Part shown: positions 1 to 15,416 of the stretch, one piece after another
How positions within the stretch are numbered: position 1 is the first letter of the stretch
How the letters are laid out: each line of letters opens with the position of its first letter
Virus record (IMG/VR): IMGVR_UViG_3300030329_005620
Coordinates: 1 to 24,998 of that record
Origin: a virus
Direction: 5' to 3' (one strand)
Length of the DNA stretch: 24,998 nt
Notes under the pieces: model-generated
What the model was told of the DNA's origin: nothing
Databases searched by the model: none
Seen by the model: the letters and a program-made list of their open reading frames with translations, nothing else
Program-made: the position numbers and the translations under genes

Positions 1-1950
1 ATGGCAAGAGAATCAACCATCAAACCAAGAAGAATAGGTGCTCAAGAATTAAGATTAGGTCGTGCAGAAGGCCTGGGAGAACTTGCACAATTATTCAAAC
101 AACAAACTAGTCAAAGAGCAAGAATGGCAACCCAAGGTGTATTAACAAGTGTTGTTGGTGCAGCAACAAGCGGTGCTCCAGGATTCATGCAAGCTAGTTT
201 ATATAATGCACTTACATCAAATCCATTCAGATCAATGGCAAGTGGTAGAGCAGGATCAACAGAACAACTACAAAGATCTTCTGGAACTGCTACTCCAATC
301 TGGGCAAAAAATTTAGAAAGACTCTATAGAGATCCTTTACCAATTACTGTTGTTAAAAATAAACTACAATCTCTTGAAGCTTCAAGAGAAGCAAAAGATA
401 TAACACCAATAGTAGTTGAAGATGATGAAGAAAAATCTGAAGATAAACAAAAGGGGTTTTTTGGAAAATTGCTTGATGGATTTAAAAGTTTATTTAATTT
501 TAAAGGTGGACTAGGTAATTTTTTAACAAAACTAGCTGGTGGTGCAGGTTTACTTGCGGCAGGTGGATTAAAATTTGCAAAAGGTATAGGATTAGCAGGA
601 TTACTGGCAACTGTGTTATTTAATAAAGAAATAATAACTCAATTGACAAAAGATTTTTCAAAAGAAGCTAAAGATCTGAAAATTAGTGAAATAGGATTAA
701 GACTTTCTTACTTTCTAACACAAGGAACAGAAGGTGGATTAAAAGAAGCTTTTGCGGGTGCGGGCAAATTTGGTGCTGCAGGAGCGGCCGCTGGTGCAAT
801 GATGGGTGGTGGTATATTTTCAATACCTGGTGCGATTATTGGTGGATTACTTGGTTCAGCAATCGGTGGAATACTAGGATTTATTGGTAGAGATCAAATG
901 ATAGATATGACCAAATTTGCTGAAACTTTCTGGAAAAAAAGTTGGAACGATGCAAGATTAGGATGGGAAACAAATGAACTCAATAAATTAAAATCATCAG
1001 AAGAAGCAGATAAAATATTACTTAAACAAGCTATTGAGGAAGGTGATTGGTTAGAAGCATCTAAAATTAAAACTAGACTTGCAGGAACTAGACAAGAGAT
1101 ACATGAGAAAGAAAAATTAATATCTGATATAAAAATAGAAATAGCAGAAAAAGAATTAAAGGAAATAAAAAATAGAGCGATGACTCTACAAAATAGAAAA
1201 AATGCTTTAAATATTGAATCAGGTCACACTAAAAAAATGGATCAAAAATTTGATACAATTAAAGATGAAATAAAATTCTTGGTCGATGGTGATGAAGAAC
1301 TAATGAAAAGAATATTTGCATTAGATCCCAAAGATTCAGATGGTTTTGCAAAAATAATAGATGAATTAGAGGAAAAATTAGATTCTGGCAGTTTAAGTAA
1401 GTTAATAGACAGTCCTTCATTTTTGGGCAGGTGGGGTTTACCATTAGATTCTGATTATGCTAATCTAGAAGGCAGAACCAAAGCGGAAACACTTATTGAA
1501 AGATTGGAGAAACTTCCTTTATGGTATATGATGCGAGCAAAAAGTGAAGATCTAACAAGACAAAAATATTTTACAGAAATGGGGCTCGCACTTGGTTCGC
1601 CTGAATTTCAACTCCAAGCTGAACAAATGACAGGAATGAAATATGGGCTTGGTGAAGATCGATTAAACGCATATACACTTGATCAGTGGATGAGAGAAGA
1701 TCCTAAAAATAAATCCGCACTTGAAGGATTATTATCTGAACAAATAAAAAATGAAAAGACTGCAAATTCCGCAAGGCTTGAGGAATTAAGTAGAATTGTT
1801 TCGGAAGCTTCTGGAAAACCAACTGTAATTGTTAATGACACAAAAACTGTTAATGCACAACAAGGACCAAGAATAGATAGAAGTCAAACATTTTTTATAG
1901 GGGGCCCACAAGTACAATATGGACCCCTTAATGAAAGAGGTAACTTTTAA
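1..1950 (+). CDS. Probable phage virion protein (649 aa), function unknown
   Basis: Only long plus-strand gene. The ATG is the first base of the window, so the true start could lie further upstream. The N-terminal 60 residues are basic and polar. Two Gly/Ala-rich hydrophobic zones follow, at about residues 170-207 and 250-294, the second a dense glycine-zipper run. Then comes a long Lys/Glu-rich, probably coiled-coil region (about 320-450). The C-terminus carries a polar stretch with VIVNDTKTVNAQQ. This architecture (soluble head, glycine-zipper segment, coiled coil, NxTxxN-type tail) is what I associate with large structural or internal proteins of marine T4-like phages, but I recognise no named family. 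Its stop overlaps the gp32 stop in a tail-to-tail arrangement. Virion role is inference. Confidence 0.75.
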   Translation: MARESTIKPRRIGAQELRLGRAEGLGELAQLFKQQTSQRARMATQGVLTSVVGAATSGAPGFMQASLYNALTSNPFRSMASGRAGSTEQLQRSSGTATPIWAKNLERLYRDPLPITVVKNKLQSLEASREAKDITPIVVEDDEEKSEDKQKGFFGKLLDGFKSLFNFKGGLGNFLTKLAGGAGLLAAGGLKFAKGIGLAGLLATVLFNKEIITQLTKDFSKEAKDLKISEIGLRLSYFLTQGTEGGLKEAFAGAGKFGAAGAAAGAMMGGGIFSIPGAIIGGLLGSAIGGILGFIGRDQMIDMTKFAETFWKKSWNDARLGWETNELNKLKSSEEADKILLKQAIEEGDWLEASKIKTRLAGTRQEIHEKEKLISDIKIEIAEKELKEIKNRAMTLQNRKNALNIESGHTKKMDQKFDTIKDEIKFLVDGDEELMKRIFALDPKDSDGFAKIIDELEEKLDSGSLSKLIDSPSFLGRWGLPLDSDYANLEGRTKAETLIERLEKLPLWYMMRAKSEDLTRQKYFTEMGLALGSPEFQLQAEQMTGMKYGLGEDRLNAYTLDQWMREDPKNKSALEGLLSEQIKNEKTANSARLEELSRIVSEASGKPTVIVNDTKTVNAQQGPRIDRSQTFFIGGPQVQYGPLNERGNF

Positions 1951-4383: not shown

Positions 4384-5610
4384 TTAAGCAGGAACCATTT
4401 CTGCTTTTGGTTTTGCATAACCCCTGACCATTTTAATTTCGTCTTGAGTTACAAATTCACCATGACCAATAGTATATGCGGCATGACCGAATTCAGCAAT
4501 GTCAATACCTTGTGTTTCTTCTTCAAGTGAAACTCGCAACCCTATTACCATTTTTATGATAAACCAAACTATCAAACTAGAAGCAAATACAAACCCCCCG
4601 ATAATTCCTATACCATAAAGTTGAGTAACTATGGATGCATCTTCTTTGAAGATTCCAACTGCAAGTGTTCCCCAAATTCCTGCAATAAGATGAACTGATA
4701 ACGCTCCAACTGGATCATCAATTTTCAGTTTATCAAACATTGGAATAGCGAGAACTGCTAAACTTGCACCGATGACTCCTATAATAAGTGACAAACCTAT
4801 TGATGGATAATCTGGACCTGCTGTAATTGAGACTAATCCAGCAAGTGCACCATTTAACACCAAAGTAAGATCTACTTTTTTGTATAGAAGTTGTGTTATA
4901 ATCATGGCAGTTACTGCACCTGCGGCGGCCGCCATATTTGTGTTTAATATTACACTAGCAATAGCATTAACATCATCTTTAGTTCCCATTGCTAGTTGAG
5001 ATCCACCATTGAATCCAAACCAACCAAACCAAAGAATAAATGTGCCCAATGTTGCTAATGGTAAATTAGATGGTGGAATAAGATTTACTTTTCCATCATC
5101 AGTATATTTACCGGTTCTTGCACCTAAAAGAATAACTCCCGCAAGCGCTGCCCATCCACCAACGGAATGAACAATTGTTGAACCAGCAAAATCAGAGAAT
5201 CCCATCTCAGATAGAAATCCTCCGCCCCACGTCCACGCACCTTGTAGTGGATAGATAACACTAGCAAGTACAAGGACAAAAAGCATGAACGACCAAAATT
5301 TCATTCGTTCTGCTATTGTTCCAGAAATGATGCTTGCTGCAGTTGCAACAAACACCACTTGGAAAAAGAAATCTGACATACCAGAATGATCTCCGTCCGA
5401 GATACTTCCGTACATCAATTGATAACCTATTGCAAAAAAGGCCAGGCAGGACAATGAATACAAACAAATATTCTTTGTCAGAATAGCAGTTGCATTTTTT
5501 GTTCTAACCATTCCTGCTTCTAACATTGAAAAGCCTGCCGCCATCAACATTACCAGCGCACCGCTGAAAAGAAGTAGAAAGGTATTCAAGATATATTGTG
5601 TTTCATTCAT
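4384..5610 (-). CDS. amt: Ammonium transporter (Amt/MEP/Rh family)
   Basis: Inner-membrane channel importing ammonium. The 408 residues and about 11 hydrophobic helices match bacterial AmtB. The family signature is present near residue 145 (DFAGSTIVHSVGG), including the first pore His, and the second pore His occurs in SVHLIAGIWGTLAVGIF. The C-terminal cytoplasmic tail (LEEETQGIDIAEFGHAAY) has the conserved pattern contacted by PII/GlnK proteins, so host nitrogen signalling could still gate it. The SD aaggag precedes the ATG. There is no obvious truncation and all key residues are intact, so it should be functional. It is an auxiliary metabolic gene most likely taken from a marine alphaproteobacterial host, for supplying nitrogen during infection. 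It neighbours a phosphate-transporter gene. Confidence 0.96.
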   Translation of the reverse strand: MNETQYILNTFLLLFSGALVMLMAAGFSMLEAGMVRTKNATAILTKNICLYSLSCLAFFAIGYQLMYGSISDGDHSGMSDFFFQVVFVATAASIISGTIAERMKFWSFMLFVLVLASVIYPLQGAWTWGGGFLSEMGFSDFAGSTIVHSVGGWAALAGVILLGARTGKYTDDGKVNLIPPSNLPLATLGTFILWFGWFGFNGGSQLAMGTKDDVNAIASVILNTNMAAAAGAVTAMIITQLLYKKVDLTLVLNGALAGLVSITAGPDYPSIGLSLIIGVIGASLAVLAIPMFDKLKIDDPVGALSVHLIAGIWGTLAVGIFKEDASIVTQLYGIGIIGGFVFASSLIVWFIIKMVIGLRVSLEEETQGIDIAEFGHAAYTIGHGEFVTQDEIKMVRGYAKPKAEMVPA

Positions 5611-5685: not shown

Positions 5686-6123
5686 TTAAAATTTAGACAT
5701 AAATTTGGAGATTTGGTGAACAAATGGTAATAAAAGAACTGCCATAAACATATTGACGCCCGTATGTACTATAGCAATTTGTCTGGTAATTCCCGTTGGC
5801 ATACCATCTGAAACAAGAAGTCCAGCTAACCAAATAGTACCAGTAGTTCCTATATTTGCTCCTAGAACTGCTGCAATTGCCGCAGGAAGTGGAAGTGCAC
5901 CACCAGCAACTAAACCAATAATTGCAGTAGTAGATAATGATGAAGATTGCCACAATAGAGTCATAACAATACCACCAACAAACATATAGATAGGATTACC
6001 TAAAAACCATTGTAGATGGTCAATATTTCCCATGGCTTTCATGCCACCAGAGAACATTTTAAGACCAATATAAAAAATCACCAAACCAAGTAAGGTTTGG
6101 ATTACTGGATTATTCAATTCCAT
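5686..6123 (-). CDS. Na+/phosphate cotransporter family protein, single repeat
   Basis: PNaS (NptA/Na-Pi cotransporter) family. The two diagnostic elements are present: the QSSS motif in TLLWQSSSLSTTAIIGLV, and GANIGTTGT about 30 residues later. About four hydrophobic segments are visible. Full-length bacterial homologues contain two inverted copies of this unit and are at least twice as long. This 145-residue form has one copy and would have to dimerise, or be a derived half-transporter. I chose the ATG at 6123 because it has a spaced AAGAAGG SD and because the probable promoter would start RNA at about 6167. An ATG at 6168 would add 15 basic residues. It lies next to amt, suggesting paired N and P acquisition. 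Confidence 0.85.
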   Translation of the reverse strand: MELNNPVIQTLLGLVIFYIGLKMFSGGMKAMGNIDHLQWFLGNPIYMFVGGIVMTLLWQSSSLSTTAIIGLVAGGALPLPAAIAAVLGANIGTTGTIWLAGLLVSDGMPTGITRQIAIVHTGVNMFMAVLLLPFVHQISKFMSKF

Positions 6124-6173
6124 AGTCTGGACCTTCTTGATGAGTTTTGCTTTTTTACTTACTTTCATACAAC

Positions 6174-6493: not shown

Positions 6494-6522
6494 ATAATAA
6501 CAAATATATTATTAAATGTCAA
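6494..6522 (-). promoter_or_regulatory. Sigma-70 promoter of the gp33-like gene
   Basis: TTGACA (6522-6517), exactly 17 bp, TATTAT (6499-6494). It overlaps the stop codon of the upstream iscU-like gene. Confidence 0.75.
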
Positions 6523-6902
6523 GTATTATTTTGTTTATTTTTATAGTCACTTATTGCTGCTTTAATTGCGTCCTCTGCTAAAACAGAACAGTGTATTTTG
6601 ACGGGTGGTAAAGATAATTCTTCGACTATTTCTACATTAGAAAGTTCCATTGCTTCATCTATAGATTTGTCTTTAACCCATTCGGTTGCGAGAGAACTTG
6701 CTGCTATAGCACTCCCACAACCAAAAGTTTTGAATTTGGCATCAACTATTTTATCACCATCAACTTGAATTTGTAGTTTCATTACATCACCGCACTCAGG
6801 CGCTCCCACAAGACCAGTACCAATGTTATTATCAGTGGAATTAAAACTACCCACATTTCGGGGTTTTTCATAGTGATCTATTACCTTATCTGAATATGCC
6901 AT
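6519..6902 (-). CDS. iscU: IscU/NifU-type Fe-S cluster scaffold
   Basis: 127 residues, the length of bacterial IscU. All ligand residues are present: Cys in GAPECGDVM, Cys in FGCGSAIAASS, and His-Cys in KIHCS. The Asp after the first Cys (D39 equivalent) is kept. The chaperone-recognition motif LPPVK precedes the last ligand pair. The protein assembles [2Fe-2S] clusters from IscS sulfur and passes them on with the HscA/HscB chaperones, so it would plug into the host Isc system. It starts where the upstream membrane-protein gene ends and is followed by the gp33-like gene. It is a host-derived auxiliary gene that could sustain Fe-S enzymes during infection. Confidence 0.95.
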   Translation of the reverse strand: MAYSDKVIDHYEKPRNVGSFNSTDNNIGTGLVGAPECGDVMKLQIQVDGDKIVDAKFKTFGCGSAIAASSLATEWVKDKSIDEAMELSNVEIVEELSLPPVKIHCSVLAEDAIKAAISDYKNKQNNT

Positions 6903-7309
6903 TATTCTTCCTTATCTTTTCCGTTTTGTAATGCTTGTTTTGCATTTTCATTATGATCAGCCATTTCTTTGTCTTCAGAATCTTCCTTATCCTTAAACCA
7001 ATAATCAGTAGATTTGGCAAGAACACCAACATAAGCACCAACCATAATATTAACCAAATCTCGATGACCATCTTTGAGATCTGCGAAAAATAAAAGATAA
7101 ACAAGGAATATAAAAGTTATAGCGTTTGCTATTGATATGGAAAATCTAGCAAACCAGTTTAATAATTTTCTTCTTTCAATTCTTTCATATTTCAATGCTT
7201 CCATTGGACGGTGTTCCCATAATGCACGTTCTTCAAAATCAACCATCTCTTTAGGAGTATTTATTTTACCATCATCTTCTCTATCTTTATGTCTTTGAAA
7301 TAGTCCCAC
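6902..7309 (-). CDS. Membrane protein with two spans (possible holin-like), 135 aa
   Basis: An N-terminal charged domain (about 1-48) carries EERALWEHRPMEALKYERIERRKLLNW. One hydrophobic helix follows (ISIANAITFIFLVYLLFFA), then a second, weaker one (VNIMVGAYVGVLAKSTDYWF), and a strongly charged C-tail rich in Asp, Glu and Lys. Two spans with a charged tail resemble some phage holins or membrane spacers, but I see no diagnostic motif. It lies one base downstream of a secreted nuclease gene and abuts iscU. Function not assigned. Confidence 0.75.
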   Translation of the reverse strand: MGLFQRHKDREDDGKINTPKEMVDFEERALWEHRPMEALKYERIERRKLLNWFARFSISIANAITFIFLVYLLFFADLKDGHRDLVNIMVGAYVGVLAKSTDYWFKDKEDSEDKEMADHNENAKQALQNGKDKEE

Positions 7310-7310
7310 A

Positions 7311-8156
7311 CTATTCCGATCTAAGAGACTTTAGTAATGCTGAAGCAATACCAACTCTTGATTTATTCTTATCTAATTCAATAAATTTATTCAATAATTC
7401 TTCAAGTTTATCTGTATCAGCCAAAGTCCATCCACCAGCTTCACCAACTTGAGTTCCCCAAAGTGAAAGTACTACATCACAATTTTGCTTGTAAGTGTAT
7501 GGATCTTTACCTTTTTTACTATGATATTCATCTGTGTTCCAGACAAAAAAACATTCTCTATGATTCTTTGCAGTAAATACTTTTCCAAATGCAGAAGGAA
7601 CTTGCAATTTACTTTTACCAATCACTTTTGGTCTATCATTAAAATAAACCAAAGTTAACATTTCTAAATTACCATGTTTGACTGCCATTTCACGTTCCAA
7701 TTTTTCTAAAGATACAAACTTATAACGATTTGCACGTTTAGTTTGAGGAACAATGTTAGCCATACTGTAAGTTGCTTTCAATGTTTTTTTAGTATAATCA
7801 TGTGATGCGTCAGAAGCACCAAGATGACCACGATCATAACCAGTATTGTTATAATCGTCAGTTGATGTAGCAACTTTTTTATCTAATCTTTTATCTGTGA
7901 AGAAATGCGGACGTGGATCTATATTTAATAGATTTACAGTATCAGCAGTAACTTCAGTATAAACTGCGATTGGAGATTTTCTTTTGTAGTCATAACAGAT
8001 AGTAAAAGTATCTGTTAAAATTTTATCACAAACATCTTTTGTAAAATGTTTCTTTATGTCTTCAACTTTTGATAAACTAACATCACCATGAGTTATAGGT
8101 TGACCAAATACTGTTGTACTGATCATGAACAAAAACACAATTAAAAGTTTTCTCAT
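7311..8156 (-). CDS. Secreted DNA/RNA non-specific endonuclease (NUC family)
   Basis: Beta-beta-alpha-metal nuclease related to Serratia nuclease and NucA. The DRGH motif with the catalytic His is in GYDRGHLGASDAS, and the metal-binding Asn region follows in YSMANIVPQTKRANR. The first 19 residues are a clear signal peptide (basic start, MRKLLIVFLFMISTTVFG), so the enzyme should be exported to the periplasm or outside the cell. I start at ATG 8156, which has AAAGGA five bases upstream, rather than at the in-frame TTG at 8171. A periplasmic nuclease in a phage could degrade DNA at the cell surface to scavenge nucleotides or exclude other phages. Either role is inference. Confidence 0.9.
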   Translation of the reverse strand: MRKLLIVFLFMISTTVFGQPITHGDVSLSKVEDIKKHFTKDVCDKILTDTFTICYDYKRKSPIAVYTEVTADTVNLLNIDPRPHFFTDKRLDKKVATSTDDYNNTGYDRGHLGASDASHDYTKKTLKATYSMANIVPQTKRANRYKFVSLEKLEREMAVKHGNLEMLTLVYFNDRPKVIGKSKLQVPSAFGKVFTAKNHRECFFVWNTDEYHSKKGKDPYTYKQNCDVVLSLWGTQVGEAGGWTLADTDKLEELLNKFIELDKNKSRVGIASALLKSLRSE

Positions 8157-8179
8157 CTCATCCTTTCTCAAACTTTCAA

Positions 8180-8287
8180 TTATACGGGTGCTACTGAATC
8201 CTCATCACATCCGCATAGATTTTCTGGTGTACACGTACATGGATCACAAGTACAGTTTGCACAATCGCAACATTTTTCTGTTTCCAT
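8180..8287 (-). CDS. Metallothionein-like Cys-rich peptide, 35 aa
   Basis: A short ORF beginning METEKCCDCANCTCDPCTCT. Nine of 35 residues are Cys (positions 6, 7, 9, 12, 14, 17, 19, 25, 27), in CC, CxC, CxxC and CxCDPCxC spacings typical of thiolate metal-cluster peptides. The C-terminal third is acidic. AGGGGA lies four bases before the ATG. It sits between the FkbM methyltransferase and nuclease genes with small gaps, as expected of a real gene. It may bind Zn, Cu or Cd, or act as a metal store beside the IscU and redox genes. Metal binding is inferred from composition only. Confidence 0.7.
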   Translation of the reverse strand: METEKCCDCANCTCDPCTCTPENLCGCDEDSVAPV

Positions 8288-8294
8288 TTTTCCC

Positions 8295-9011
8295 CTATTT
8301 ATGTGAATTGTGGACGTATATGGCGTCCATTCTACCTTGCCAATGTTTTTTATAATTCATCACATTCATCTGTCTCTCAGAAACCCCACCATGAGCGGTT
8401 TCAACAATTATTACTGGTTTACATCTCTCAAGTGTTTCCTTTGCTCCTACTAGAGCTTGGTATTCAAATCCCTCTATATCTAACTGAATTAAATCACAAA
8501 TTTGTAAATTTAAACTATCTATCTTTGTTGTTTTTTCAGAACCACTTTCATTTAAATTAATTCTGTGTGCTCCATGATTCTGAAATTGACCATAATGTTG
8601 TCTGGATTTATCTAAAGTCCATCCCTTGTCTTCATGTTCACCCAAAGCTTTTTTAAAGAATGTAATTTTGTTATTTACATCATATTTTTTTATATTCTTT
8701 TCTGAAACATATCTGTTCATCAATGACGGTTCAAATGTATATATTGTATCAAAGTATTGTGTATATAATATTGGCCAAACACCCATTCCTGCTCCTGCTT
8801 GTACAAGAACACGTTTCATTTTAACAGGATCTAACCAATCGAGATGTTCATTTTTAAAATCTTCAATATTATCAAACAATCCTTCTTCACCAATTGGCCA
8901 TGTCATCTTTTCTATGTTAGCATAATTAATATCTCTAGTGTAAAGTTTTGATTCTATTCTATCAATAAAATCATCAGTATAACAATGAAAAGTATCACTA
9001 TATTGTGCCAT
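8295..9011 (-). CDS. FkbM-family SAM-dependent methyltransferase
   Basis: 238 residues. The SAM-binding loop is RVLVQAGAGMGVWPILY, the acidic strand end is YTFEPS, and the later family signature is LIQLDIEGFEYQALVGAKETLERCKPVIIVE. These are the standard motif I, motif II and DIEGxE elements of FkbM methyltransferases, which O-methylate sugars or small metabolites. In phages such genes often modify surface glycans or virion sugars, but the substrate is not visible here. It lies immediately downstream of the tmRNA and upstream of the Cys-rich peptide. The same 12-nt sequence occurs at each end of the gene (9027-9038 and 8306-8317). Confidence 0.9.
   Translation of the reverse strand: MAQYSDTFHCYTDDFIDRIESKLYTRDINYANIEKMTWPIGEEGLFDNIEDFKNEHLDWLDPVKMKRVLVQAGAGMGVWPILYTQYFDTIYTFEPSLMNRYVSEKNIKKYDVNNKITFFKKALGEHEDKGWTLDKSRQHYGQFQNHGAHRINLNESGSEKTTKIDSLNLQICDLIQLDIEGFEYQALVGAKETLERCKPVIIVETAHGGVSERQMNVMNYKKHWQGRMDAIYVHNSHK
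8306..8317. repeat. 12-nt direct repeat flanking the FkbM gene, copy 1
   Basis: AATTGTGGACGT, identical to 9027-9038. This copy lies inside a hairpin TGGACG-TATATGG-CGTCCA at the 3' end of the coding region. Confidence 0.6.
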
Positions 9012-9026
9012 AATATCCTTGATTTA

Positions 9027-9038
9027 AATTGTGGACGT
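9027..9038. repeat. 12-nt direct repeat flanking the FkbM gene, copy 2
   Basis: AATTGTGGACGT, identical to 8306-8317. This copy forms one arm of the terminal hairpin of the tmRNA coding piece. Confidence 0.6.
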
Positions 9039-9205
9039 TTCTGTTTCAAGGTACGCCCAAACCCATCAACTTATGCGGCCATGGCCATAGAAGCTGAAGT
9101 ATAATCGTTATTATTTGCGATTAAGTTTAATGCACATTCACGGTAGTCGCTCACCGGATACCTAATATCCAACTTCACAATCAATCGAGTACCTTTACAT
9201 CCCCA

Positions 9206-9298
9206 TCAAGAAACAAGAATAATTTCTAAGATGTAATAAAAACCAATTATAATTCCAAGAATCAACACCCACAACATGATAATTCCCATGTCATCCAT
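9206..9298 (-). CDS. 30-residue membrane microprotein inside the tmRNA intervening segment
   Basis: The ORF starts at ATG 9298 with AAGGAG (9309-9304) five bases upstream. The first A of that SD is the last base of the tmRNA CCA. It encodes MDDMGIIMLWVLILGIIIGF followed by YYILEIILVS and TGA (ends 9206), two bases before the tmRNA 5' half. It fills the excised segment almost exactly. The peptide is one long hydrophobic helix with an acidic N-terminus, like the other microproteins in this window. Translation would need the precursor, or a separate transcript, before processing. Confidence 0.6.
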   Translation of the reverse strand: MDDMGIIMLWVLILGIIIGFYYILEIILVS

Positions 9299-9359
9299 TC
9301 GTGCTCCTTGGTGGAGATGGCCGGAATCGAACCGGCGTCTTAATTGCTATCTGAATACA

Positions 9360-10019
9360 TCAGACAGTATCATAATTATTTATAACTTCTTTCAATCTCT
9401 CAATATTTTCATCAGGATAGGCAAAAAATACTTGGGGATCACTATTAATAACTGCTATTACAATTACTACTTGTGATATTTTAATTCCTGTTCTTTCTTC
9501 ATACATTTTAGCATAAGCAGTACCTTGTAGCTTATAACTCTCAATCCATTCTTCACGTTTGGGTTTTGATGATGTTTTCCAATCTATAATAGAAAGTTCA
9601 TCATCATACTCTGCTATACAATCACATTGTCCCGCTACTCCCAACTCTTTAGACCATAAAGAAACTTCAAGTCCATATATATTACCAATATGAATATCTA
9701 AAATAGATTGAACTGACTTAAACAATTCAATATTATCTGGAAAATGTCCGCTTAAATAATCTTGCTTATTTTGCAGATAGTCTTCGATAATCTTATGCGT
9801 TTTTGTTCCTCTTCGTGAAGCTTGTGTAGAGATTTTATTTGCTTCTGCTTCTCCAACCCTGTTTCTCCACTCCTGTATAGAAGCTTTGGACAAAGATGAA
9901 AGAACTGTAGTGATGCTTGGGAAATTTCCATCTGGTGTTTCGTATAATCTTTTTCCTGAAATGTTTTTTCTTGTTATATCACCAATTATTTCAAGAGATT
10001 CATGATTAAAAGTTTTCAA
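9360..10019 (-). CDS. RecB/Cas4-like PD-(D/E)XK exonuclease
   Basis: 219 residues. The nuclease signature is visible in order: GTKTHKIIEDYL (motif with conserved His), GVAGQCDCIAEYDDELSIIDWKTSS (the D...D-x-K core), and LQGTAYAKMYEERTG (QxxxY motif). These are the marks of the RecB nuclease/Cas4 superfamily, and stand-alone versions occur in T4-like marine phages. It probably trims or resects DNA in phage recombination or host-DNA degradation. The start overlaps the stop of the FmdB-type gene by 4 bases. Its stop codon lies within the first hairpin of the tmRNA precursor, and the tmRNA promoter is within its last codons. Confidence 0.88.
   Translation of the reverse strand: MKTFNHESLEIIGDITRKNISGKRLYETPDGNFPSITTVLSSLSKASIQEWRNRVGEAEANKISTQASRRGTKTHKIIEDYLQNKQDYLSGHFPDNIELFKSVQSILDIHIGNIYGLEVSLWSKELGVAGQCDCIAEYDDELSIIDWKTSSKPKREEWIESYKLQGTAYAKMYEERTGIKISQVVIVIAVINSDPQVFFAYPDENIERLKEVINNYDTV
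9377..9384 (-). promoter_or_regulatory. T4-type late promoter for the tmRNA
   Basis: Exact TATAAATA on the minus strand within the last codons of the RecB-like gene. The predicted start at about 9371 is within a few bases of the first hairpin of the tmRNA precursor. Confidence 0.75.
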
Positions 10020-10276
10020 AATGTATTAATGTCACCTAGTTTAGTACTACGGTGCTTCCTTTTAATTTCTTTTAAGTGATCTCTAAATGCGGGGTCTGGT
10101 TTTCTCAAACCCAATCTAATTGGATCTGCTACTCCTGGAAAAACTAATTTCATTTTTATTAATCCTTCTCCACATTTACCACAAATTTTTCCTACTGGTA
10201 AATTTCTATCTGCGATGAGATGAAATTCTTCAAATTCATTATCACAGGTATCACATTGATAATCATAATTTGGCAT
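10016..10276 (-). CDS. FmdB-type zinc ribbon protein
   Basis: 86 residues. It starts MPNYDYQCDTCDNEFEEF, the canonical FmdB/CxxC-CxxC putative regulatory domain with paired Cys (QCDTC and ICGKCG), followed by a charged tail. Family members are small zinc ribbons of uncertain role. It overlaps clpS by one base upstream and the nuclease by four downstream, so it is part of one operon. Confidence 0.85.
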   Translation of the reverse strand: MPNYDYQCDTCDNEFEEFHLIADRNLPVGKICGKCGEGLIKMKLVFPGVADPIRLGLRKPDPAFRDHLKEIKRKHRSTKLGDINTF

Positions 10277-10572
10277 TATGTCTCCCTTAAATTTACTTGT
10301 AAAGGATAGTCAAGTTCTTTAGCTTCCAACATAACTTCATATGCTTTTTGTTCCGCTACTTGAAATGGATAAACACCTGCTATACCTTCTCCTTTTGTAT
10401 GAACATTCATCATTATTTTTTCTGCTTCTGTTTTTGTTTTACTAAAATAATACATTAAAGCATAAGTAACGAATTCCATTGGAGTATAGTCATCATTTTT
10501 AAAAAGGACAAAATAATTCCTTGGTGGTTTTACTTTGTCCTTTACTCTTTTTTTATCTACTACTTGATTCAT
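10276..10572 (-). CDS. clpS: ClpS adaptor
   Basis: 98 residues. The ClpS core is clear: YFVLFKNDDYTPMEFV with the N-degron pocket NDD, then AEKIMMNVHTKGEGIAGVYP and VAEQKAYEVMLEAKELDYPL. In bacteria it binds the ClpA N-domain, delivers N-end-rule substrates and blocks ClpAP from degrading ssrA-tagged proteins. A phage copy would bias host Clp proteolysis. It shares this operon with a tmRNA, whose tag products are Clp substrates. The start overlaps the preceding gene by four bases. Confidence 0.94.
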   Translation of the reverse strand: MNQVVDKKRVKDKVKPPRNYFVLFKNDDYTPMEFVTYALMYYFSKTKTEAEKIMMNVHTKGEGIAGVYPFQVAEQKAYEVMLEAKELDYPLQVNLRET

Positions 10573-10967
10573 CGATCAAATGGCCTACCATCAAAGAATG
10601 TTCTTAAACTAGTGAATGGTTTGTAATTTTTGGTAACTTCATCTTTATTAGTCACCATCCACTCACCATTTATATATGTGTAGATAAATTCCACACCATT
10701 TTCTTCGCCATATTCAAGAAGATCAAAATAATCTGAAACAGTACTTTTTGATTCATCATAAACTTCAATATCATACTCACTTGGCCATAAAGACCTTGCT
10801 GCTCCTTTTGTTGTTAGTTTTTCAACTTTTCCATCTTCATCATAATAGTGATAAAGATTATATCCTGTATATTCAATATCTCCATTATATTCTGTTGTAC
10901 AGAAATTAAAACCATTTTCTGTTTCACTAGCAATGATAGTATTCATCATAATATTAACCTTGTCCAT
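10569..10967 (-). CDS. Hypothetical protein, 132 aa
   Basis: Acidic, Tyr-rich soluble protein (NGDIEYTGYNLYHYYDEDGK, then EFIYTYINGEWMVTNKD). The repeated aromatic beta-strand-like segments suggest an all-beta fold. The start overlaps the end of guaC by 14 bases. A second pair of Met codons at residues 7-8 is an alternative start. No family recognised. Confidence 0.75.
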   Translation of the reverse strand: MDKVNIMMNTIIASETENGFNFCTTEYNGDIEYTGYNLYHYYDEDGKVEKLTTKGAARSLWPSEYDIEVYDESKSTVSDYFDLLEYGEENGVEFIYTYINGEWMVTNKDEVTKNYKPFTSLRTFFDGRPFDR

Positions 10968-11946
10968 AAACGTTATTTAATTGACGATTAACTCTTACAA
11001 AAGTAGTACACTTTGGTAAGTCTTTTAAGGTTTTAGCACCCGCATAAGTACAAGCGCTTCTTAACCCCCCTAAAATTTCTTCTATGGTTTTTTTAACTGG
11101 TCCTTTGTAGCGAACATAAACAACTTTTCCTTCACTCGCTCTGTAGTCCTTTTTATCACCATAATATTCTTTTTGTGCTTCTTCTGAAGACATTCCATAA
11201 AATTTCATAACAGATGGTCCTTCTTCTAGATCTTCAGTATCACCCAAACATTCATCATGACCCGCCAACATACCACCGAGCATCACAAAGTCTGCACCAG
11301 CCCCAAAGCTCTTTGCTAAGTCTCCCGCTACGGTACAGCCTCCGTCTGTGATGATATGACCGCCTAGCCCGTGTGCCGCATCCGCACACTCTATAGTTGC
11401 GCTCAATTGTGGATACCCGACTCCTGTCATTTTTCTTGTTGTGCATACGCTTCCTGGTCCTATTCCGATTTTAACAATATCTGCACCCGCAAGAATAATC
11501 TGTTCTGTCGCCTCAGGGGTACATACGTTTCCTGCTATAATAATAGAATCATCAAACACATCACTATTTCTTAACATAGAAACATAATCACTAAATCTTT
11601 CTGTATAACCATTTGCTACATCCAAACAAATCCATTTAGAAGGTTTTAAATTTTTAATATCTTCATCTAAACCTATTGTTTGAATTAAATTATCCTTTTC
11701 TTCAAACGGCACAAATTTACATAATGCGGTCAACATGGCGTGCTTAGACAAAGCTGATCTCATATCATAAGTTCCTGTATGATCCATATTGGCAGCAATA
11801 ATTGGTATACCTTCCCAAGTATGACTAGAATATTTAAATTTAAATACTCTTGCTAACCACGCATATTTTCTTGAAACTAAAGTAGATCTTTTTGGTTTAA
11901 TTAAAACATCTGAAAAATCTAATTTAACATCTTCTTCTATTCTCAT
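10954..11946 (-). CDS. guaC: GMP reductase
   Basis: 330 residues. It begins MRIEEDVKLDFSDVLIKPKR, almost the same as E. coli GuaC. The catalytic Cys lies in the loop GPGSVCTTRKMTGVGYPQ. Phosphate-binding and IMPDH/GMPR features appear in IITDGGCTVAGDLAKSFGAG and FVMLGGMLAGHDE. No CBS domains are present, as expected for GMP reductase rather than IMPDH. It converts GMP to IMP with NADPH, recycling guanine nucleotides toward adenine ones, which suits an AT-rich genome. The SD AAAGGA precedes the ATG. It heads the guaC-clpS-nuclease operon behind a 240-bp leader. Confidence 0.94.
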   Translation of the reverse strand: MRIEEDVKLDFSDVLIKPKRSTLVSRKYAWLARVFKFKYSSHTWEGIPIIAANMDHTGTYDMRSALSKHAMLTALCKFVPFEEKDNLIQTIGLDEDIKNLKPSKWICLDVANGYTERFSDYVSMLRNSDVFDDSIIIAGNVCTPEATEQIILAGADIVKIGIGPGSVCTTRKMTGVGYPQLSATIECADAAHGLGGHIITDGGCTVAGDLAKSFGAGADFVMLGGMLAGHDECLGDTEDLEEGPSVMKFYGMSSEEAQKEYYGDKKDYRASEGKVVYVRYKGPVKKTIEEILGGLRSACTYAGAKTLKDLPKCTTFVRVNRQLNNVYGQG

Positions 11947-14506: not shown

Positions 14507-14687
14507 CTTGTCCTGTTTCAATTACTCTGAATGCTCCCAAAATAGAAGGAACCCAAAGTCCAACATAGATACCATAAAGTTTAGCATCTGGACTGTCCAT
14601 AAAGAAAAACAAGTAAATTGACAACGCAAGAGATAGAACTGTTGCGAATAAAACATATTGATGAGATTTTTTCATCTTTCCTTTCAT
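14487..14687 (-). CDS. Two-span membrane protein, 66 aa
   Basis: Two hydrophobic helices (YVLFATVLSLALSIYLFFF and LYGIYVGLWVPSILGAF) separated by a short polar turn, with a charged C-tail ending GQDEDGTD. The start at 14687 is an ATGA overlap with the Prx stop. A second ATG four codons later has a better-spaced AAAGGA. Function unknown. Confidence 0.7.
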   Translation of the reverse strand: MKGKMKKSHQYVLFATVLSLALSIYLFFFMDSPDAKLYGIYVGLWVPSILGAFRVIETGQDEDGTD

Positions 14688-15169
14688 AATGAATTCAATA
14701 AATTTTCGGGTTTAGTAATGTCATAAGGATCATCATCTAAACCCATTTGATTAATACCATCTTCACGCCACAATTTTTCAACTTCCATATCATTAATCAC
14801 CATAGCGTAACGCCAACTACGATAACCAAAGTTTTGTGCCGGTTTCCAAACCAACATATTCATATCCCTTGTAAATTCACCACTACCATCAGGGATCATT
14901 TTAACATTTTCAATTTCGTGTTTCTCAGCCCATGCATTCATTACAAATGAATCATTTACTGACATACAATAGACTTCATCAATACCTTTTGCTTTGAAGT
15001 CATCATAAAGAGCATCCAGACCTGGAAGCTGTAGTTCGCTTCATATAGGTGTAAATGCACCAGGCAAAGAAACAACCAAAGATCTTTTACCAGCAAAATA
15101 CTGATGTGCTGTTTCTATGAACCAATCAGAACCTTTTCTGATTTTCCAATTAGTGTTAGGCACTTTCAT
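14684..15169 (-). CDS. Peroxiredoxin (Prx5 type) with in-frame UGA at the catalytic position; probable selenoprotein
   Basis: Read through the UGA at codon 43 (15043-15041), the frame gives 161 residues, the usual Prx5 length. The active-site motif reads LPGAFTPI-U-SELQLPG, where family members have PGAFTPTCS, so UGA replaces exactly the peroxidatic Cys. Downstream family marks are intact: VYCMSVNDSFVMNAW, DGSGEFTRDMNM and FGYRSWRYAMVINDMEV, with the active-site Arg. A SECIS-like hairpin follows the UGA. Other genes here stop at UGA (iscU, FkbM neighbours), so a code change is unlikely. A pseudogene from Cys to UGA mutation is the alternative, but the hairpin and the intact downstream frame argue for selenocysteine. 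The start overlaps the end of glutaredoxin, its likely reductant. Confidence 0.85.
15011..15030 (-). promoter_or_regulatory. Bacterial-type SECIS hairpin after the Prx UGA
   Basis: The minus strand reads AGCTTCC-AGGTCT-GGATGCT: stem AGC/GCT, one U-U mismatch, U-A and CC/GG, with apical loop AGGUCU. The loop begins 17 nt after the UGA. As I recall E. coli fdhF, its SECIS has the same AGGUCU loop at the same distance, with an unpaired U in the stem for SelB. Confidence 0.8.
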
Positions 15170-15416
15170 CATTCTCCTTTTCATAGTGTTTAACTAAGTC
15201 TTGATAATTACCAATGAATTCACCATCAATAATTATTTGTGGTACCTGAGTTGATTTAGTTTCCTTCATCAACTTACCAAAGAATTTCTTATCAGAATTA
15301 ATAACAGTATATTTAATACCCTTTTCATCAAGAAACTCTTTTGATTTATCACACCATTCACAATCAGGAACAGATTGGTGACGTATGATAACATTTCCAT
15401 TTAATTCTAAATTCAT
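15156..15416 (-). CDS. grx: Glutaredoxin
   Basis: 86 residues. The active site is dithiol CEWC in VPDCEWCDKSKEFLDEKGI. The cis-Pro loop is TQVPQIIIDGEFIGNY, with the conserved GxxIGxxxD-like glutathione site. The fold and length match bacterial Grx. It reduces disulfides with glutathione and would recycle the adjacent Prx5-type enzyme; in some bacteria Prx5 and Grx are one fused protein. AAGGA lies before the ATG, just after tRNA-Asn. The end overlaps the Prx start by 14 bases. Confidence 0.94.
   Translation of the reverse strand: MNLELNGNVIIRHQSVPDCEWCDKSKEFLDEKGIKYTVINSDKKFFGKLMKETKSTQVPQIIIDGEFIGNYQDLVKHYEKENDESA

Follow-up and report, generated by a model that had tools for sequence, protein, structure and literature searches.

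One of the questions raised by this locus is why a viral gene for a peroxiredoxin (Prx) should carry a stop codon at the very position where its family places the catalytic cysteine. Is the gene in decay, is the codon read as some ordinary amino acid, or is UGA translated as selenocysteine (Sec)? The gene lies on the minus strand of the window, by which is meant the whole 24,998-base virus record that was analysed, and the features discussed below are collected in Table 1. On sequence comparison it is very probably a phage peroxiredoxin in which UGA is read as selenocysteine by the host.

Table 1. Features of the peroxiredoxin locus, in window coordinates
Feature	Position	Strand	Basis
Sec-containing Prx5/PrxII peroxiredoxin gene (predicted), 161 residues with U43	14684..15169	-	sequence, Pfam, PHROG, 1NM3
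UGA codon 43 (predicted selenocysteine), replacing the peroxidatic Cys	15041..15043	-	TGA/TGY comparison across homologues
Bacterial-type SECIS hairpin (predicted), AGC-U-UCC AGGUCU GGA-U-GCU, with U.U mismatch, spanning +13..+32 as counted from the first base of the UGA	15011..15030	-	folding, relatives
Apical loop region AGGUCU, 17 nt past the UGA	15018..15023	-	fdhF comparison
Glutaredoxin gene, immediately upstream, overlapping the Prx start	15156..15416	-	ORFs, profile match
AAGGAG, probable ribosome-binding site within the glutaredoxin 3' end, before the Prx ATG	15174..15179	-	sequence

A peroxiredoxin gene with UGA at the catalytic codon

Read through its full length, the gene encodes a protein that runs from MKVPNTNW by way of LPGAFTPI-U43-SELQLPG to LLNSL and a stop. 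As a previous reading made from the sequence only had stated, the TGA at codon 43 is the sole break in a translation that is otherwise intact, and ORF calling with the standard code recovers nothing of the locus beyond a C-terminal fragment of 93 amino acids (14684-14965). The protein matches the Pfam Redoxin family PF08534 with 83.7 bits (cut-off 26.6; E 1.4e-23) and the PHROG 2281 family 'peroxyredoxin antioxidant' with an E value of 1e-64, and the nearest solved chain is HI0572 of Haemophilus influenzae (1NM3, E 5e-38). The assignment of codon 43 to the peroxidatic cysteine of Prx5 enzymes is borne out by alignment with this chain, where the codon falls on that cysteine of the Prx5-type domain, within the PGAFTPxC motif. 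Among 15 relatives the active site P36-GAF-T40-PI-U43, together with R117 and R120, is invariant or nearly so, with U in place of Cys. The presence of an intact Prx5/PrxII gene with UGA at its catalytic codon is confirmed.

The order of glutaredoxin (Grx) followed by Prx is common to the window, most close phage relatives and the marine bacterium SAR324, and a sister phage clade is without the upstream glutaredoxin. This neighbour is the probable reductant partner of the window Prx.

The window also encodes a T4-type gp32 single-strand DNA-binding protein and a helicase loader. In other contigs of the family (L007, L054, L113, L067 and L030) the Sec-Prx gene is adjoined by genes for a gp44-type clamp loader, a sliding clamp, PhoH, ThyX and an exonuclease, and these contigs are, by their gene content, phage; T4-type replication genes thus lie close to Sec-Prx. 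Elsewhere in the window there is a cluster of host-like genes, all on the minus strand (4384-5610, 5686-6168, 6519-6902, 10276-10572 and 10954-11946), with products comprising an ammonium transporter, a Na/Pi cotransporter-like protein, a NifU/IscU-like scaffold, a ClpS adaptor and an IMPDH/GMP reductase. A permuted tmRNA gene is found at 8980-9401 on the minus strand (RF04321, 110 bits), with the tag ANNNDYTSASMAMAA, and similar permuted tmRNAs occur in the Sec-phage contigs L050, L067, L070 and L071/L113. In L030, which belongs to a second Sec clade, positions 7264-10001 beside Sec-Prx encode substrate-binding proteins of the Bmp/PnrA type and of an NMT1/THI5-like kind along with an ABC ATPase, and the T4-like phage contig L113 has the alpha subunit of a Rieske-type ring-hydroxylating oxygenase at 10076-11167.

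Distribution of the UGA and cysteine forms

A TGA at exactly codon 43, with no other stop, is present in at least 31 further viral contigs that are about 48-93% identical to the window. The first search for relatives gave 44 in viral contigs, where TGA was found in all of the close and several of the distant ones and TGT or TGC in the remainder. When sequences were scanned for the TGA version of the active-site motif, 30 viral contigs matched, and 30/30 encode a Prx of the window type; together with L015, which falls outside the motif, and the window itself this brings the viral TGA form to a total of about 32. Homologues with cysteine nevertheless form the majority of the family (about 100 viral loci with TGT or TGC in the present comparison), so that the search for UGA as opposed to UGC or UGU in viral homologues, proposed by the sequence-only reading, has yielded both. 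Among phage records, 96 hold such cysteine homologues, nearly all of them from named cyanophages or pelagiphages and each below 60% identity. Throughout the family TGA and TGY exchange at one codon, such that UGA is aligned with the catalytic cysteine.

The same motif with TGA also occurs in bacteria, where 26 of 36 matches are Prx relatives, chiefly from Reyranella-type alphaproteobacteria and often with a Cys paralogue adjacent. In Reyranella and its relatives (L075, L083, L084, L087, L089, L096, L099, L104 and L105) the Sec and Cys Prx5 paralogues stand about 0.5-0.6 kb apart, start to start.

The hairpin downstream of the UGA codon

Insertion of selenocysteine in bacteria calls for a SECIS element, and a hairpin with a small apical loop that contains a G does lie directly 3' of the UGA, which is the arrangement described for such elements (PMC1088965). 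AGGUCU occupies bases 18-23 past the window UGA; both its sequence and its distance from the UGA are exactly those in E. coli fdhF, as the sequence-only reading had put forward. When the full 61 nt are folded the z-score is -0.2, which is uninformative because such a stretch is too long for so short a hairpin. Over +12..+35 the window folds at -7.5 kcal/mol, and 0/400 synonymous shuffles, drawn on window-wide codon usage, were equally low. For the same interval the mean minimum free energy of the Sec forms is -7.5 kcal/mol against a synonymous null of -1.8, and that of the Cys forms -0.7 kcal/mol against -0.6. The difference between the two forms has a Mann-Whitney p of ~1e-12, a value obtained from related and hence non-independent sequences, and the shuffle p-values of single sequences are modest (median ~0.03).

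Complete pairing of the stem of the main clade (clade 1), CUUCCA/UGGAAG at +15..20/+25..30, is seen in 18/23 Sec forms and in 0/83 viral Cys forms. Three Sec forms with one mismatch are the window and the SAR324 pair, in which a U.U replaces one base pair and the stem is lengthened by G14-C31 and A13-U32. The constraint is also visible at the level of codons, with Leu48 written as CTT and Pro49 as CCA in 26/26 clade-1 Sec sequences (entropy 0), as against 2.13 and 1.15 bits for the same codons in 86 Cys homologues; at other positions of the clade-1 Sec genes where Leu, Pro, Val or Gly is invariant, the codons are mostly variable. In the second Sec group (L030 and L067/L070) a similar hairpin fold, with a bulged U, is formed by an altogether different sequence. 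Of what could be asked of the hairpin, then, its retention in Sec forms and absence from Cys forms held good, but classical covariation proved slight within the main clade since the stem there is nearly invariant. The case for the predicted SECIS stands on the frozen synonymous sites and on the contrast between Sec and Cys forms.

Decay, alternative decoding and regulated termination

A standard frame interrupted by one in-frame stop is what would be seen in a pseudogene, or following an error of sequencing or assembly, yet about 31 further contigs, drawn from many metagenomes and 48-93% identical, share the same TGA, which rules out the sequencing error that had been named as a way to overturn the selenoprotein reading. 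Decay would also leave its mark on the codons beyond the stop. The mean pN/pS of the window clade is 0.145 before the UGA and 0.140 after it (pS 0.5-0.6), with values of 0.27 upstream and 0.18 downstream in the sister clade; no further stops occur within 95 codons 3' of the UGA in 21 sequences, and no additional frame-breaking changes were seen in related phages. Similar purifying selection on both sides of the UGA, together with the lack of further stops, excludes a decaying gene, and the combined explanation of pseudogene or error is exceedingly improbable. A different view would have UGA act as a regulated terminator, with the functional protein being either the short product of 42 residues or a C-terminal part made after a restart, and Sec insertion an incidental event. 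Several relatives do have an ATG at codon 46, soon after the UGA, but this codon is missing from the window (Leu46) and from the sister clade, and conservation extends over the N-terminal region and the PGAFTP-x-U loop of the active site as a single fold, all of which makes such regulation highly unlikely.

Stop codons are recoded in some phages, and the window tRNA genes include tRNA-Trp(CCA) and tRNA-Cys(GCA), such that the UGA could in principle be read as Trp, Cys or Gly, whether by a near-cognate tRNA-Trp or under an alternative code that extends across the phage. Against this, TGA ends 5 of 20 long coding sequences in the window (TAA ends 11 and TAG 4), and a search of the window and 19 further contigs brought up no second gene with a credible UGA interruption, from which it follows that the phage uses the standard code. 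Candidates for interruption elsewhere were rejected as overlaps with tRNA or tmRNA, short noise or neighbouring genes that end in TGA, as was a PhoH read-through tail in L012/L015 that overlaps the Prx start. A residue lacking sulfur or selenium would, moreover, cost the enzyme its active site, and the hairpin is restricted to the TGA forms. Readthrough of this kind is accordingly given little credence.

Selenocysteine machinery and the likely host

Neither the window nor any of 31 loci scanned yielded a tRNA-Sec, so that insertion of selenocysteine would rely on the machinery of the host. Where might such a host be found? The SAR324 single-cell genome AG-404-P05 has, as in the window, a glutaredoxin gene followed by an overlapping Prx(Sec) gene; the Prx protein is 84% identical to that of the window and the DNA 80% identical over 725 bp. 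This pair lies on a contig that resembles a chromosome, beside an ABC-transporter operon, and the genome holds selB (377 bits) as well as a tRNA-Sec (anticodon TCA, 57.5 bits). Neither selA nor selD was detected in AG-404-P05, a probably incomplete genome, and within its order selA is above cut-off in 34/41 genomes and tRNA-Sec in 32/41. The earlier suggestion that the phage borrows host machinery fits with a carrier of the gene that has both selB and tRNA-Sec and with phages in which no tRNA-Sec was detected.

A Sec-decoding marine bacterium is the most probable host, and SAR324 is the best candidate. The permuted tmRNA of the window has no counterpart above cut-off in SAR324, and its gp32 no match among SAR324 genomes, so that gene exchange is the single line that carries the host link. 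A contig from a 'Legionellales' MAG (L081), which is 86.6% identical to a SAR324 contig over 4.5 kb, is probably mis-binned.

Possible origin and transfer of the gene pair

In trees the SAR324 pair is nested within the phage Sec sequences, and a Prx5 match is absent from 36/41 genomes of the order to which the SAR324 cell belongs; taken together these favour transfer from phage to host. In AU tests a tree in which the phage genes form a clade that excludes SAR324 was not rejected (p = 0.084), and neither was one that unites all Sec forms (p = 0.286), the alternative to an independent origin of the second Sec clade. The chances seem evenly balanced that Sec arose within the phage Prx lineage, through a change of Cys to Sec with a new SECIS and perhaps twice, in separate T4-like phages, and that the Grx-Prx(Sec) pair then passed to SAR324. 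If so, phages would be both makers and carriers of bacterial selenoproteins.

A proposed role during infection

The reading that we hold with high confidence is of a T4-like marine phage with an operon for Grx and a one-selenocysteine Prx5/PrxII, whose Sec would be inserted by a host for which SAR324 is the best candidate and which would act as a peroxidase during infection. Both proteins would be encoded in a single overlapping operon. Fundamental to the scheme is host SelB, which when loaded with Sec-tRNA(Sec) would bind the hairpin 3' of UGA-43 and place selenocysteine at the peroxidatic position. The selenol of U43 would then reduce H2O2 or alkyl hydroperoxides, with the oxidised enzyme recycled by glutathione and the adjoining glutaredoxin. 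In this way a fast peroxidase would be retained in the infected cell as host functions wane, and phage replication shielded from peroxide. From the sequence evidence we infer the insertion of Sec, the recycling by Grx, the protection in infection and the identity of the host.

The roughly 32 viral contigs represent a phage gene family with all of the sequence hallmarks of a bacterial selenoprotein, truncated by standard gene callers and overlooked by annotation pipelines. Some phages are thereby implied to depend on the selenium metabolism of their host, a dependence that would confine them to Sec-decoding hosts, and a phage Sec gene may thus act as a host predictor. In the phage SECIS, selection is visible at synonymous sites, and the family offers a test case for the exchange of Cys and Sec and for the movement of selenoproteins between lineages.

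Comparison with known systems

A search of the open literature (5.39 million papers) brought up no prior account of a phage selenoprotein, in keeping with the previous remark that few or none have been characterised, and phages go unmentioned in a 2026 review of prokaryotic selenoproteomes. One catalogue reports viral members to be few or absent outside the RNR II, plastocyanin and Cu-Zn SOD families (PMC9402790). Predicted tRNA-Sec genes, which hint at a tie between phages and selenocysteine, are described in Basilisk-like phages (PMC6145125) and in huge phages from wastewater (PMC10747093), where the accessible text of the two reports presents the tRNA gene without a selenoprotein, the reverse of the window phage, which has the predicted selenoprotein and in which tRNA-Sec was not found. 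The glutathione peroxidases of the poxviruses molluscum contagiosum and fowlpox are likewise viral antioxidant selenoproteins that use the Sec machinery of the host, but they have a eukaryotic SECIS and machinery and belong to a different enzyme family (PMC8310308).

Closer in family are the Prx proteins of cyanophages and pelagiphages (PHROG 2281), for instance in S-SSM4, HTVC008M and Phage C48C1, which also come from T4-like (Kyanoviridae) phages. Their identity to the window is below 60% and these three records annotate an uninterrupted CDS, and related viral contigs have TGT or TGC and, unlike the window, no SECIS hairpin. For cyanobacteria the Sec trait went undetected (PMC1794560), and the use of Sec or Cys in phage Prx may track Sec decoding by the host, with the Cys-form phages infecting cyanobacteria and Pelagibacter. 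H. influenzae HI0572 (1NM3) shares the Prx5/PrxII family, the PxxxTxx(C/U) motif and a Grx partner with the window, but is a fusion with a peroxidatic Cys rather than a pair of separate, overlapping, phage-borne genes with predicted Sec. Prx proteins with a TxxU motif are known from the Sargasso Sea and GOS catalogues, in which they were catalogued as bacterial (PMC1088965, PMC2398784, PMC9402790), and it is with the bacterial Sec-Prx enzymes, including those of the Reyranella type, that the phage protein would have in common a peroxidatic Sec and a downstream SECIS of the bacterial kind.
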